A stretch of DNA of 64,000 nucleotides from Halobacteriales archaeon QS_1_69_70. GTDB taxonomy: Archaea; Halobacteriota; Halobacteria; Halobacteriales; Haloarculaceae. The notes under the pieces are model-generated. The model was not told where the DNA came from and searched no databases. It saw only the letters and a list, made by a program, of their open reading frames with translations. Where the stretch lies: contig PXRI01000008.1 of NCBI GenBank assembly GCA_003021005.1, forward strand, positions 1 through 64,000, given 5' to 3'. The translations under genes and the position numbers were made by a program. Of the stretch, positions 26,819-31,923 are shown in pieces; within the stretch, counting starts at the first letter, position 1; every line of letters begins with the position of its first letter.

Positions 26819-27835
26819 CTACGAGTCGTCGGACGTGTGCTCGCGCTCGGGGTTGACGCCGAGCCACCGACGGTAGTCGCCCAGGCCACGGAGCACGTCG
26901 ACTAACCCGCGGCCCCCGTGGTCGCCGGGCCGCAGGCGGGCGCGGAGCCGCGAGGAGATCAGTTCCACCGAGACGACGATGAAAAACACCATCACGATGC
27001 CGGCGGCCATCTGTTGGTACGCGCGGACGCCCTGCATGCTGTCGATGTAAAAGCCGATGCCGCCCGCACCGACGATCCCGAGCCCGATCGCGATCCGGAC
27101 GTTGATCTCGAGGATGTACAGCGTCCAGGCGATGAACGATCGGGACACCTGGCTCAACATCCCGAAGGAGATGACCTGCGAGCGCGCGGCGCCGGTCGAC
27201 CCGATCGCTTCGATCGGGCCCTCCTCGATCTCCTCGAGTTCGTCGGTGAACAGCCGGCCCAGGTTGCCGATCGTGTCCGTCCCGACCGCGAGCACGGCCC
27301 CGCTGGGGTTGATGCCCACGAGCGGCGCGTAGATGAACACCCAGACGAGCGCCGGGATCGACCGGATGGCGCTCATCGTCCCCCGGAACAGGAAGTTCAG
27401 GGGGAACGGGGTGACCCGCTCGCTGCCCAAGATCCCGAAGCTGAGCGCCAGCGGGAACCCGATGACGGTCCCCAGGAAGCCGAGCAACAGCGTGACGAAG
27501 GAGGTTCGCACGAGGCTGGTCCGCTGGGAGGCAAACGAGTCGACGAAGGCGTCGGCGAAGTTCGCGAAGCTGGCGATCACCGCGTCGAACCCGGTGATCT
27601 CGTTGTCCTTGGAGTACAGGGTGAAGTCCACGAAGTCGACGGGGAAAAATCCGTTCAGGAACGTCGCCCCGCCGCTCAGGTTGATCAGAAGCGACCGCCA
27701 CTCGAACCGGATGAACTGGAGGCCGTAGTAGGTGACCACCCCGACGAGGACCACGAACAGCACGGTCGCTATCCGTCGGATCGTCCGGGAGCGTTCGATC
27801 GTCGCGAGTTTGTCGTCGATGCTGGACGGACTCAC
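26819..27835 (-). CDS. phnE: Phosphonate-type ABC transporter permease
   Basis: Membrane permease of 338 residues with six or so hydrophobic spans and the conserved cytoplasmic loop around EAIGSTGAARSQVISFGMLS (EAA-like). Its GTG start overlaps the phnC stop as GTGA, so translation is coupled. Together with PhnC and PhnD it forms an importer for phosphonates, phosphite or phosphate esters; the ligand cannot be chosen from sequence. No C-P lyase genes are present here. Confidence 0.92.
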   Translation of the reverse strand: MSPSSIDDKLATIERSRTIRRIATVLFVVLVGVVTYYGLQFIRFEWRSLLINLSGGATFLNGFFPVDFVDFTLYSKDNEITGFDAVIASFANFADAFVDSFASQRTSLVRTSFVTLLLGFLGTVIGFPLALSFGILGSERVTPFPLNFLFRGTMSAIRSIPALVWVFIYAPLVGINPSGAVLAVGTDTIGNLGRLFTDELEEIEEGPIEAIGSTGAARSQVISFGMLSQVSRSFIAWTLYILEINVRIAIGLGIVGAGGIGFYIDSMQGVRAYQQMAAGIVMVFFIVVSVELISSRLRARLRPGDHGGRGLVDVLRGLGDYRRWLGVNPEREHTSDDS

Positions 27836-28653
27836 GTCGGCTCACCGCCCTCGGTGGTGGCGTCCGGCGGCCCACGTTCGCCGGTCGTGTCGGGGTCGGG
27901 CTGGGCCGGGCTCGCCGACCGGTCGGTCGGCTCGCCGCCGTAGTAGATCTCGTCGACGACCTCCATCGTCAGGGCGTCCTCGTCGCCGTCGAAGGTGACC
28001 TCCCCGTCCCTGATGCCCACGAACCGGTCGCCGAACTCCCGGGCGATGTTCACCTGGTGGAGGCTGGTGACGGTGGTCAGGTTCCGGGCGTCGGCGGCGC
28101 GCTTCAGGTAGGCCATCACCTCCCGTGCCGCCTTCGGATCGAGGCTGGACACCGGTTCGTCCGCCAACAGCAGGTCGGGCGCCTGGACCAACGCCCGCGC
28201 GATGCCGACCCGCTGCTTCTGGCCGCCGCTCATCGAGCCGGCGCGCTGGGTCGCCGCCTCCAGTAGCCCGACGGTGTCGAGGGCCTCGAGGGCGTCCCGT
28301 TTGGTCTCGTTGTCGTACGCGGTGCAAATGCTCCGGAGCGTGCCGGTCCGCCCGAGCGCCCCGGTCAGGGCGTTCCGGTAGGCCGACATGCTCTCGATGA
28401 GGTAGTGCATCTGGAACACCATCCCGACCGTCTCGCCGGAGCGCTCGCGGGGGTTCGCCCCGGCGACCCTCACCGTGCCCTCCGTGGGTGGCGTGAGGCC
28501 GTTCAGGACGCGGAGCAACGTCGACTTTCCGGCACCCGATGGGCCCAACAGGACGACGAACTCGCCTGGCTCGATCGCGAGCGAGACGTCCCGGAGGGCG
28601 ACGGTGTCGTCCCCGTACTCCTTCCGCACGTCGGCCAGTTCGACGGCAGTCAT
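27832..28653 (-). CDS. phnC: Phosphonate-type ABC transporter ATP-binding protein
   Basis: ATPase of the importer, 273 residues from ATG at 28653. Walker A GPSGAGKST, Q-loop VFQMHYL, signature MSGGQKQR, Walker B LLLADEPVSSLD and a switch His in TSLHQVN are all present. A 40-residue Pro/Asp/Gly-rich acidic tail is an addition to the family core. Overlaps phnE and follows phnD by 70 bases. Confidence 0.95.
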   Translation of the reverse strand: MTAVELADVRKEYGDDTVALRDVSLAIEPGEFVVLLGPSGAGKSTLLRVLNGLTPPTEGTVRVAGANPRERSGETVGMVFQMHYLIESMSAYRNALTGALGRTGTLRSICTAYDNETKRDALEALDTVGLLEAATQRAGSMSGGQKQRVGIARALVQAPDLLLADEPVSSLDPKAAREVMAYLKRAADARNLTTVTSLHQVNIAREFGDRFVGIRDGEVTFDGDEDALTMEVVDEIYYGGEPTDRSASPAQPDPDTTGERGPPDATTEGGEPT

Positions 28654-28723
28654 CTCGTGAGATCCGTTGTGGAGAAGTTGCGCCCGGGGTTTCAATACCG
28701 TGGCGGTTCGTGCCCGCCGCCGG

Positions 28724-29665
28724 TCAGTTCGACTCGAAGACGCCCGTCCCGACGCCGAGTTCCGTCGCGACGTCGACGACGCTCTGGTACTTGCCGACGT
28801 CGGCCGCGCGAACGTCGTCGAACCAGAGGTCGTCGTCCGTGCCTTCCTCGCCGTCGGCGCCCCAGTAGATCTCCTGTGGGGCGTCGACGAACGCCTGCTG
28901 GAGGGTCTCCGTGCGGTCGTCGCTCAGCTCGGGGCTGACGACGATGGGTGCACGCGGCAGGCCGGTGGACTCCGCGAGCGTCCGTGCGTCCTCTTCGAAC
29001 TCCTCCGGGCTCGGGCCGGCGCCGGTGTCGCGGACGAACCCGCCCATCCCGGCGGCCTCGACCTGGCCCTGGACGAGCTGCTCGTAGGCACTCACGTGGC
29101 CCCCGGCGAAGACGGCGTCGAAGGCGGCCTCCGATCCGTTGCCCTCGGGGAGGTTCCCGATCTCGACGCCCGCCTGGCTGATGTTGTACAGCGGGTACAG
29201 GGCGCCGCTCGTCGACAGCGGGTCCGAGAAGGCGACCGATTTGCCCTCGATATCGGCGACCTCCTCGATATTGCTATCGGTCCGGACGGCGATGATGCTT
29301 TTGTACGTCCAGGTGCCGTAGCCCTTTCGCTGGAGGATGATCTCGGCGCTGTCGTCGTTCACGCCGAGGGCAGCCGCGAGGGGCCCGGTCTCGGCGACGT
29401 CGGTCGTCCCCGAGCCGAGTGCCTCGATGACCGCGCTGTAGTTGTCCGCGAGGTTCATCTTCGTGGTCCGGTCGAACTCCTCGGAGAGGAACTCCCGGAC
29501 CGGCGAGTACTGTACCTCGAGGTCCTCCTGTGGGACGCTCGGCGACACGTTGAAGTCGATCTCGCCGTCGTTGAACGGTTCGCCCCCGAGGCCGAGACAG
29601 CCGGCCATCGCCACCGTAGACCCCACGACTCCCGCCGTCTCCAGGAAGGTACGACGCCGTGTCAT
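28724..29665 (-). CDS. phnD: Phosphonate-type ABC transporter substrate-binding protein
   Basis: A lipoprotein of 313 residues. The N-terminus TRRRTFLETAGVVGSTVAMA followed by GC is a Tat signal with a lipobox, so the protein is exported folded and anchored at the outer face of the membrane. The PhnD-like fold is seen in NLADNYSAVIEALGSGTTDV, SIIAVRTDSNI, GKSVAFSDPLSTSG and AFDAVFAGGHVSAYEQ. A TATATA sequence at 29719-29724 lies about 55 bases upstream of the start and probably drives the phnDCE operon. Confidence 0.93.
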   Translation of the reverse strand: MTRRRTFLETAGVVGSTVAMAGCLGLGGEPFNDGEIDFNVSPSVPQEDLEVQYSPVREFLSEEFDRTTKMNLADNYSAVIEALGSGTTDVAETGPLAAALGVNDDSAEIILQRKGYGTWTYKSIIAVRTDSNIEEVADIEGKSVAFSDPLSTSGALYPLYNISQAGVEIGNLPEGNGSEAAFDAVFAGGHVSAYEQLVQGQVEAAGMGGFVRDTGAGPSPEEFEEDARTLAESTGLPRAPIVVSPELSDDRTETLQQAFVDAPQEIYWGADGEEGTDDDLWFDDVRAADVGKYQSVVDVATELGVGTGVFESN

Positions 29666-30745: not shown

Positions 30746-30844
30746 TCAGTCGGTTCGGTCCACGTCGCTGCCGTCCTCGTCGTCGCCGTCGGGCGGGTCG
30801 GCGAAGTCGTGGTGGACGAGTTCCTCGGTGAGGTGGGTGGTCAT
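30746..30844 (-). CDS. Possible 32-residue acidic peptide
   Basis: MTTHLTEELVHHDFADPPDG followed by DDEDGSDVDRTD and a stop. The acidic composition is haloarchaeal and a GTTTATAAC box lies about 35 bases upstream on the same strand. Too short for homology; could be a regulatory or leader peptide. Confidence 0.45.
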   Translation of the reverse strand: MTTHLTEELVHHDFADPPDGDDEDGSDVDRTD

Positions 30845-30885: not shown

Positions 30886-30968
30886 ATTACTGAAGGAGCA
30901 ACGGTTCGCAAGAAAACCGCCGTGGTGCCCCCGATCAGCGAAGAGAAATGGGCCCGGCCTTATCTCTC

Positions 30969-31070
30969 CGCACAACCGACCGACGCGAGTACGGTCGGTT
31001 GTGCGAAACCTCTTACAACGCTGTAAGAGGTATTACTTCCACCCGGTATCTCTGACACCCATGTCAGAGG
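30969..31070. other. Three successive perfect hairpins
   Basis: Hairpin 1: CGCACAACCGACCG pairs with CGGTCGGTTGTGCG (14 bp, loop 9, 30969-31005). Hairpin 2: CCTCTTACA pairs with TGTAAGAGG (9 bp, loop 4, 31009-31030). Hairpin 3: CTCTGACA pairs with TGTCAGAG (8 bp, loop 4, 31050-31069). The three stems differ in sequence, so this is not a tandem repeat. The region from 30845 to 31227 has no other credible gene. Confidence 0.85.
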
Positions 31071-31227
31071 TTTCGAGAGAGTGCCGGTTTGTCGAACAAC
31101 CCTGAAAAGCTAACGGTCGTTGCAATCCGACGAGATCTACAACGCCGCGGAACCTCGGCCTCAAGCCGCAGCAGCCGCCGGATGGCGTCACGCCATCGTA
31201 TTGGCCCGGCTACGGCGATAGGCAGCG

Positions 31228-31671
31228 GTGACCGATCCGGACGACTTCACGAAGTACTTACCCGCGTCGGCGACCAGCGTAGAGTCAATGATTGAGAGCG
31301 CTGACGAGTCGGCCTACCAAGAGGCCCCTCCAGAGCCGGATGTTGACGCTATCCCGTCGCTGACGGCCATCGTGCCGGCATACGAGGGCCTGCTCAATAT
31401 GGCGACACGGCGGCTAGACGGCCCGGTACAGACGCGGGTCCGAACTTGGGAAGACGGCGAATTCGAAATCCGCGTATATCACGGGTACGGGCCGCATCCG
31501 CAGCGGCCGGACACGGGGTATCACCACGTCCTGCGATACCACAGCCGCGACGATAGCGTCGTAGAGGGGCTCGTGGCGGTAGAGGTTGAAACGTCGGAGA
31601 AAACACTGATTTACTGCACGATCATAGATGCCGATGGCGTCTGCGTTGACGCCGGTCGCAGCCCCCAATAA
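31228..31671 (+). CDS. Orphan hypothetical protein
   Basis: A 147-residue acidic protein from a GTG start: MTDPDDFTKYLPASATSVES and onward, with a C-terminal alpha/beta-like part (FEIRVYHGYGPHP, VLRYHSRDDS, LVAVEVETSEKTLIYCTI). The acid-rich composition supports a real gene. Codon use is less GC-biased than in the flanking chromosome, and it sits with hairpins and gene fragments, suggesting a plasmid- or virus-derived patch. No family recognised. Confidence 0.55.
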   Translation: MTDPDDFTKYLPASATSVESMIESADESAYQEAPPEPDVDAIPSLTAIVPAYEGLLNMATRRLDGPVQTRVRTWEDGEFEIRVYHGYGPHPQRPDTGYHHVLRYHSRDDSVVEGLVAVEVETSEKTLIYCTIIDADGVCVDAGRSPQ

Positions 31672-31694
31672 ATTGAGAGACTGTTGGGGGGCGA

Positions 31695-31866
31695 CTATTT
31701 CACCCGTTTTGCCGTCCCCGGCCGCTTGCAGCGCTCGCAGATCCGTTTGAGGGCGGTGCCTGTCTCGGCGTCTGCGGGCTCGCGTGCCTCGTACTACCCG
31801 CGCCGCACCGGCGACTTCGGGTCGGCCGGCAGCCACTGCAGCCCACCGCACTGTCGTCGGAGCGGC
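31695..31866 (-). pseudogene. Decayed fragment with a CxxC motif
   Basis: On the minus strand one frame reads RRQCGGLQWLPADPKSPVRR then G, a TAG, and YEAREPADAETGTALKRICE then RCKRPGTAKRVK and a stop. The sequence on both sides of the TAG has coding style, so this is probably a gene with a nonsense change (TAG where a Trp or Gln codon might have been). Upstream there is another TAG, so only a C-terminal part is left. Confidence 0.35.
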
Positions 31867-31923
31867 TAACGGGCGGTTCTTGCGGCCGCTCGCAGGGACC
31901 TGGACCCGGTGATACCGCTGGTT

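Follow-up and report, generated by a model that had tools for sequence, protein, structure and literature searches.

The three hairpins at positions 30969–31070 of the window, the 64,000-nucleotide stretch of a haloarchaeal chromosome that we analysed, are probably the right half of a replication-origin-like region, which would belong to an undescribed family of haloarchaeal viruses, phage-plasmids and plasmids and persist here as a relic fragment. The hairpins make up a piece of ∼130 bases, which in related elements forms part of an array of dyad-symmetric sites lying 3′ of a gene for a small coiled-coil protein. As judged from the sequences compared, this array is best read as a replication origin of the iteron type, used by a replicon family that would be undescribed. 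In the window, the chromosome most likely retains no more than a fragment of such an origin, an inactive relic of a past invader, whether virus or plasmid.

Three hairpins and one dyad motif

All three stems reported in a preliminary description of this DNA are present as strong, perfect hairpins. Hairpin 1 (30969–31005; arms 30969–30982 and 30992–31005) has a 14-bp perfect stem and a 9-nt loop, and corresponds to the variable hairpin that precedes dyad 2 and follows the GC box in related arrays. Hairpin 2, referred to here as dyad 2 (31008–31031; arms 31008–31017 and 31022–31031), reads ACCTCTTACA-ACGC-TGTAAGAGGT, with 10-bp arms and a loop of 4, and is a proposed protein-binding site. Hairpin 3, or dyad 3 (31050–31069; arms 31050–31057 and 31062–31069), reads CTCTGACA-CCCA-TGTCAGAG, with 8-bp arms and a loop of 4. 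The stem lengths originally given, 14, 9 and 8 bp, are correct for the outer two hairpins, but the middle stem extends to 10 bp. The GC box GGGCCCGGCC (30950–30959), just upstream, occurs in exact or variant form in most related arrays; neither it nor any of the hairpins is assigned a strand.

The hairpins are real and non-random. The region folds with a z-score of −6.3, and none of the shuffled sequences folded as well. When the 64-kb window was simulated 60 times with a first-order Markov model, three perfect stems of 8 bp or more never fell within 102 nt, confirming that the arrangement is too regular for chance, and a stem of 14 bp or more arose in one simulation. The description of the stems as three different sequences is accurate for hairpin 1, which is distinct, but hairpins 2 and 3 repeat one 16–20-bp dyad (CTCTTACA/TGTAAGAG) in diverged form, a shared motif that had been missed. 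Their consensus is CTCT[T/G]ACA-N4-TGT[A/C]AGAG, and together they form a composite inverted repeat in which 31004–31032 is 79% complementary to 31047–31075. When the dyad pattern was sought across the window with up to 2 mismatches, hairpins 2 and 3 were the only matches, against a chance expectation of 0.08. An Rfam scan of the hairpin region gave no family match at the gathering score, and a tRNA scan was empty.

A coiled-coil gene and its 3′ array

Window positions 30939–31029 (91 bp) are 96.7% identical to L008, a 43.9-kb haloarchaeal virus contig that encodes an integrase, an HNH endonuclease and a probable terminase small subunit, and ∼110 bp of the window are 83% identical (112 aligned columns) to a contig of Natronomonas sp. 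CBA1123 (G131). The window segment is therefore homologous at the nucleotide level to member arrays of the gene-and-dyad family. When 146 genomes of the taxonomic family were searched at the nucleotide level, the array turned up outside its own genome in G131 alone, the remaining matches being short (22–29 bp), and a scan of IMG/VR for the hairpin 1 pattern returned a single contig, L008, with dyad 2 beside hairpin 1. A scan of 392 genomes of the order found the CTTACRNCNNTGTAAGMG pattern in five: the genome under study, G131, G325, G381 and G250. It stands beside a coiled-coil gene in G131, G325 and G381 and is a lone single site in G250, and the window is the only clear case among the 392 genomes of an array that lacks its gene. 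A blastn search with 171 bp of hairpin DNA matched no plasmid or phage record. Several weaker candidates were set aside: the viral contigs L009/L010, L011 and L012/L013 contain a short dyad, are of low or mid GC and have nothing else in common with the array, and were treated as chance; a 29-bp match between window 31081–31109 and G126:C23 and a 19-bp match to viral contig L176 both lie in unrelated contexts.

It had been proposed that the stems be sought in haloarchaeal viruses and plasmids, and the array is present there in L008, in the viral contigs L092/L093, in HCTV-2 and in a 58-kb Natronosalvus rutilus plasmid that carries phage genes. At these loci, as in G131, in the chromosomal contigs of G381 and G071 and in a 35-kb Halolamina pelagica contig (G325), it lies 3′ of a homologous coiled-coil gene. 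The array directly follows this gene in most cases, with one further small gene between them in N. rutilus, and in L008 and G131 it starts within about 40 bp of the stop codon. The L008 and G131 proteins are 45% identical, and family members are about 190–265 aa long; further, more distant copies are found on both plasmids and chromosomes. The HCTV-2 homologue, gp86, matches a family protein at 30% over 126 aa and has the dyad CGTAAC...GTTACG 3′ of its gene. This region of a Samsavirus (Saparoviridae) resembles the others in pairing a distant protein homologue with a 3′ dyad, but gp86 is annotated as a hypothetical protein, no integrase is annotated and the dyads have diverged.

The protein has a long coiled coil followed by a C-terminal domain of helices and β-strands that appears winged-helix-like in a predicted fold of modest confidence (pLDDT 69). 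A fold search with this model gave no significant structural match; domains 2–3 of RctB ranked second with an E-value of 0.17 and were not usable as evidence. Pfam and NCBIfam scans of the protein gave nothing above the curated cut-offs, and its PHROG matches are weak and fall mainly within the coiled coil. A distant coiled-coil branch (L106, L107, L112, L116, L121, L125 and L126) has another, ATCACAACNNGTGTGAT-like dyad about 170 bp past the stop codon, and may represent the same system acting at a different site. Among the proteins of the N. rutilus phage-plasmid is one that is DpdA-like (deoxypurine DNA modification; L157, 17179–18261).

Counting from the gene, the order of elements is dyad 1, a half-site (e.g. 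CGTAAGAGAA), an AT-rich stretch, a second half-site (CTCTTACA), the GC box (GGGCCCGGCCC or a variant across arrays), the variable hairpin and dyad 2, with dyad 3 following in some arrays. Each of the seven intact arrays (7/7) holds a 40-mer that is in the top 2.3% of its locus for AT content and that adjoins the half-site and GC box. The stem of hairpin 1 has the same sequence in L008 and a symmetric change in G131. In L092, HCTV-2 and the N. rutilus plasmid, and marginally in G325, the position between the GC box and dyad 2 is taken by a hairpin of different sequence; in G381 and G071 no hairpin there rises above shuffles (weak or absent).

The dyads themselves are of the TGTAAG type in most elements, GTAACA in N. 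rutilus, TTCAAACA in G071 and CTGACA in G471. Hairpin 3 of the window is of the CTGACA type, with CTGACA/TGTCAG also found beside the family protein in G471; it is a symmetric variant of dyad 2 and is homologous to dyad 3 of G131. Because the 17 dyads compared were picked by hand from the arrays, the percentage of paired positions is partly a product of construction, and the informative part is the joint change of letters on the two sides, for which the covariation score is 0.267 compared with 0.112 for shuffled dyads. None of 500 shuffles reaches 0.267, and registers slid out of alignment score at most 0.088. The stems have thus passed the check for compensatory change in relatives that had been suggested for them. 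The N. rutilus array (L054, NZ_CP100358.1, 6735–7200) has extra GTAACA/TGTTAC-type sites past dyad 2, more than other members.

The case for a replication origin

In intact members, the small protein encoded upstream of the array, with its coiled coil and winged-helix-like C-terminus, would presumably bind the TGTAAG-type dyads as a dimer or multimer. The bound dyads, with half-sites one helical turn apart, would sit at both ends of a region of ∼250 bp that also holds the AT-rich stretch, the GC box and the variable hairpin, and binding may promote strand opening and hence the start of replication. We place an origin first for several reasons. The gene–array unit is common to viruses, a phage-plasmid and integrated elements that have little else alike, and within it dyads are clustered together with an AT-rich stretch. 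Several members have Orc1/Cdc6 or ParA close by: Orc1/Cdc6 is near the array in G325, ParA is near it in G071, and one or both lie within ∼1–11 kb of several more distant family members. No Orc1/Cdc6 or RepH is annotated on the N. rutilus phage-plasmid, and none of the ten of its proteins that were tested, a limited sample, has a recognised initiator domain. Finally, the order of elements is like that of SNJ2, where a rep gene is followed by a downstream binding repeat and hairpin, as shown by mutation (PMC13107129). Against an origin, members adjoining Orc1/Cdc6 could rely on that protein as initiator, and GC skew placed no origin at the array in the N. rutilus plasmid; the model of the protein, of modest confidence and with no significantly similar structure, also weighs on this side. 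The earlier suggestions of a plasmid or viral replication feature and of binding sites are both supported by the conserved position of the array at the 3′ flank of a putative initiator or binding-protein gene in haloarchaeal viruses and plasmids. A packaging function, proposed alongside them, is disfavoured, as a terminase gene is near the array only in L008 among the loci examined.

Repeat-based origins are already known, and the gene with its dyad array would be a new variant. Theta-plasmid origins of the bacterial Rep/iteron class resemble the arrays described here in that binding sites recur, an AT-rich stretch is present and a small winged-helix-like protein is encoded next to them. The differences are that the sites here are dyads rather than direct iterons and are always 3′ of the gene, and that the protein has a coiled coil and no detectable homology to known Rep proteins. 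The SNJ2/Rep-Arvir system of betapleolipoviruses (PMC13107129) is similar in that the origin lies just 3′ of the rep gene, with an inverted-repeat binding site and a hairpin, and in its occurrence in haloarchaeal viruses and plasmids. However, the dyads are conserved and the hairpin sequence is variable in our family, the reverse of SNJ2, and the short protein has no PF25227 (DUF7845). This domain was absent from the L008 and G131 proteins in a Pfam scan and from the N. rutilus proteins tested, and we therefore rejected a Rep-Arvir (PF25227) rolling-circle origin. Haloarchaeal Orc1/Cdc6-ORB origins (PMC3528665) also have inverted repeats and an AT-rich stretch, and some members of the present family are near orc1/cdc6, but here the dyads are of the TGTAAG type, there is no G-string and the directly adjacent gene is not orc1/cdc6. 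An origin of this kind was rejected because no Orc1/Cdc6 ORF lies beside the window array and only some members have one near; no orc1/cdc6 is annotated in the N. rutilus plasmid or HCTV-2.

The features that favour an origin also have to be weighed against other functions of clustered dyads. The structured RNA proposed in the preliminary description, or an array of RNA processing or termination hairpins, would account for the very stable fold and for the compensatory changes in the dyads. The region has no Rfam family, however, and hairpin 1 changes completely between elements. Protein-binding DNA is likelier than RNA structure because half-sites also occur unpaired and the central ACA/TGT is kept as sequence, and the dyads are more likely to be DNA sites bound by a dimeric protein; we consider an RNA function highly improbable. 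A partition centromere, in which the coiled-coil protein would be the centromere-binding protein and the dyads parS-type sites, fits the position of clustered dyads next to a coiled-coil, DNA-binding-like protein and the proximity of ParA in G071, as well as the ParA-like genes found no more than several kb away in G325 and in plasmids of Halorubrum and Actinarchaeum. Yet the G071 ParA already has an adjacent small protein as its likely partner, ParA is not close in most loci, HCTV-2 (with no annotated integrase or ParA) has no obvious need for partition, and the AT-rich stretch and GC box are better suited to an origin, making partition unlikely. Control of transcription, of adjacent genes or of the coiled-coil gene by its own product, appears quite unlikely: dyads spaced by one helical turn are a typical operator arrangement, and the L008 array precedes a membrane-protein gene and the probable terminase small subunit gene, but the array is 3′ of its gene in all cases and never 5′, the downstream genes vary between elements and the ∼250-bp multi-part layout exceeds what operators need.

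A literature search limited to open-licence papers found no published description of the gene–array family. Conservation of the gene and array extends from HCTV-2 to plasmids and to integrated elements in several haloarchaeal families, and the pair, one small gene and the array downstream, is a testable candidate for the replication of haloarchaeal tailed viruses and phage-plasmids. Were this confirmed, vectors could draw on a new haloarchaeal replicon, and a group of proteins now listed as 'hypothetical' could be annotated. The copy in the window is of minor importance in itself, a fragment and the trace of a past infection or plasmid.

A fragment inserted in the chromosome

The genome under study (G000; 2.45 Mb in 44 contigs) is from the genus of Natronomonas sp. 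CBA1123. Its hairpins lie within an inserted segment, overlooked in the preliminary description, that is absent from the sister genome G126 and spans 30941–31806, with no strand assigned and an uncertain right end (31915 if the whole unaligned stretch is included). The window aligns to G126:C70 in two blocks, one running up to 30940 (94%) and the other starting at 31916 (98%), with colinear flanks and 28 bp between the blocks in G126. The left junction is at 30939–30941, with a possible 2-bp (CG) microhomology. Part of the 28-bp spacer resembles window 31808–31830, and the insertion is ∼0.87–0.97 kb long, or about 0.87 kb if 31808–31830 is counted as old sequence. A chimeric assembly is unlikely because both flanks match one colinear G126 locus.

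The start of the insertion coincides with the start of viral similarity, and the cut in the viral sequence falls between the second half-site and the GC box. The insertion contains the GC box, hairpin 1, dyads 2 and 3 and a 147-aa ORF (ORF147; 31228–31671, + strand). Dyad 1 and the AT-rich stretch are absent from the window, where the homologous segment begins just before the GC box, and no coiled-coil/winged-helix gene is present in the insertion, with 0 matches in the genome, which is 82% complete. The window array is a fragment rather than a full family member because it has no coiled-coil gene, and without dyad 1, the AT-rich stretch and the gene it should be dead as an origin. The array fragment and a plasmid-type ORF were presumably inserted into the chromosome at one point, with hisH on one side and lrp/glnA on the other. 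One observation runs counter to a relic: the window stems are still perfect, although a relic long out of use would have no need of this. The 96.7% identity to L008, however, would equally suit a recent insertion.

Intact dyads and near identity to a virus could instead mean that the window array is a functional chromosomal decoy, titrating the initiator of an incoming virus or plasmid in an incompatibility-type interference or serving a satellite, and its standing as the only gene-less array in the genomes scanned, apart from the lone site in G250, would suit such a role. It is nonetheless a single case with no sign of selection, two dyads may not suffice to titrate an initiator, and insertion of a mobile-DNA fragment is an ordinary event; we regard a decoy as very unlikely. 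The boldest combination, a novel initiation system of a small coiled-coil winged-helix protein and a 3′ dyad origin whose captured half titrates the initiator of its relatives as an interference element, deserves very little credence. An inactive origin fragment remains our preferred interpretation of the window copy.

ORF147 has no Pfam, NCBIfam or PHROG match, and its relatives are mostly on Haloarcula plasmids or accessory contigs, with up to 4 matches per genome. It was rejected as the partner gene of the array because its closest relative (G125, 76%) has no hairpins upstream. Outside the insertion, a very small ORF on the − strand (30746–30843; peptide start MTTHLTEELVHHDFADPPDG) adjoins a palindrome-bearing AT-rich stretch. 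G120 and G133 have a similar short peptide, MTNQLTEELVHWELADPP..., at the same place, and the product may, from this comparison, be a conserved small protein. Upstream of hisH, window 26819–29665 contains phosphonate-type ABC transporter genes, the substrate-binding protein being confirmed by Pfam.
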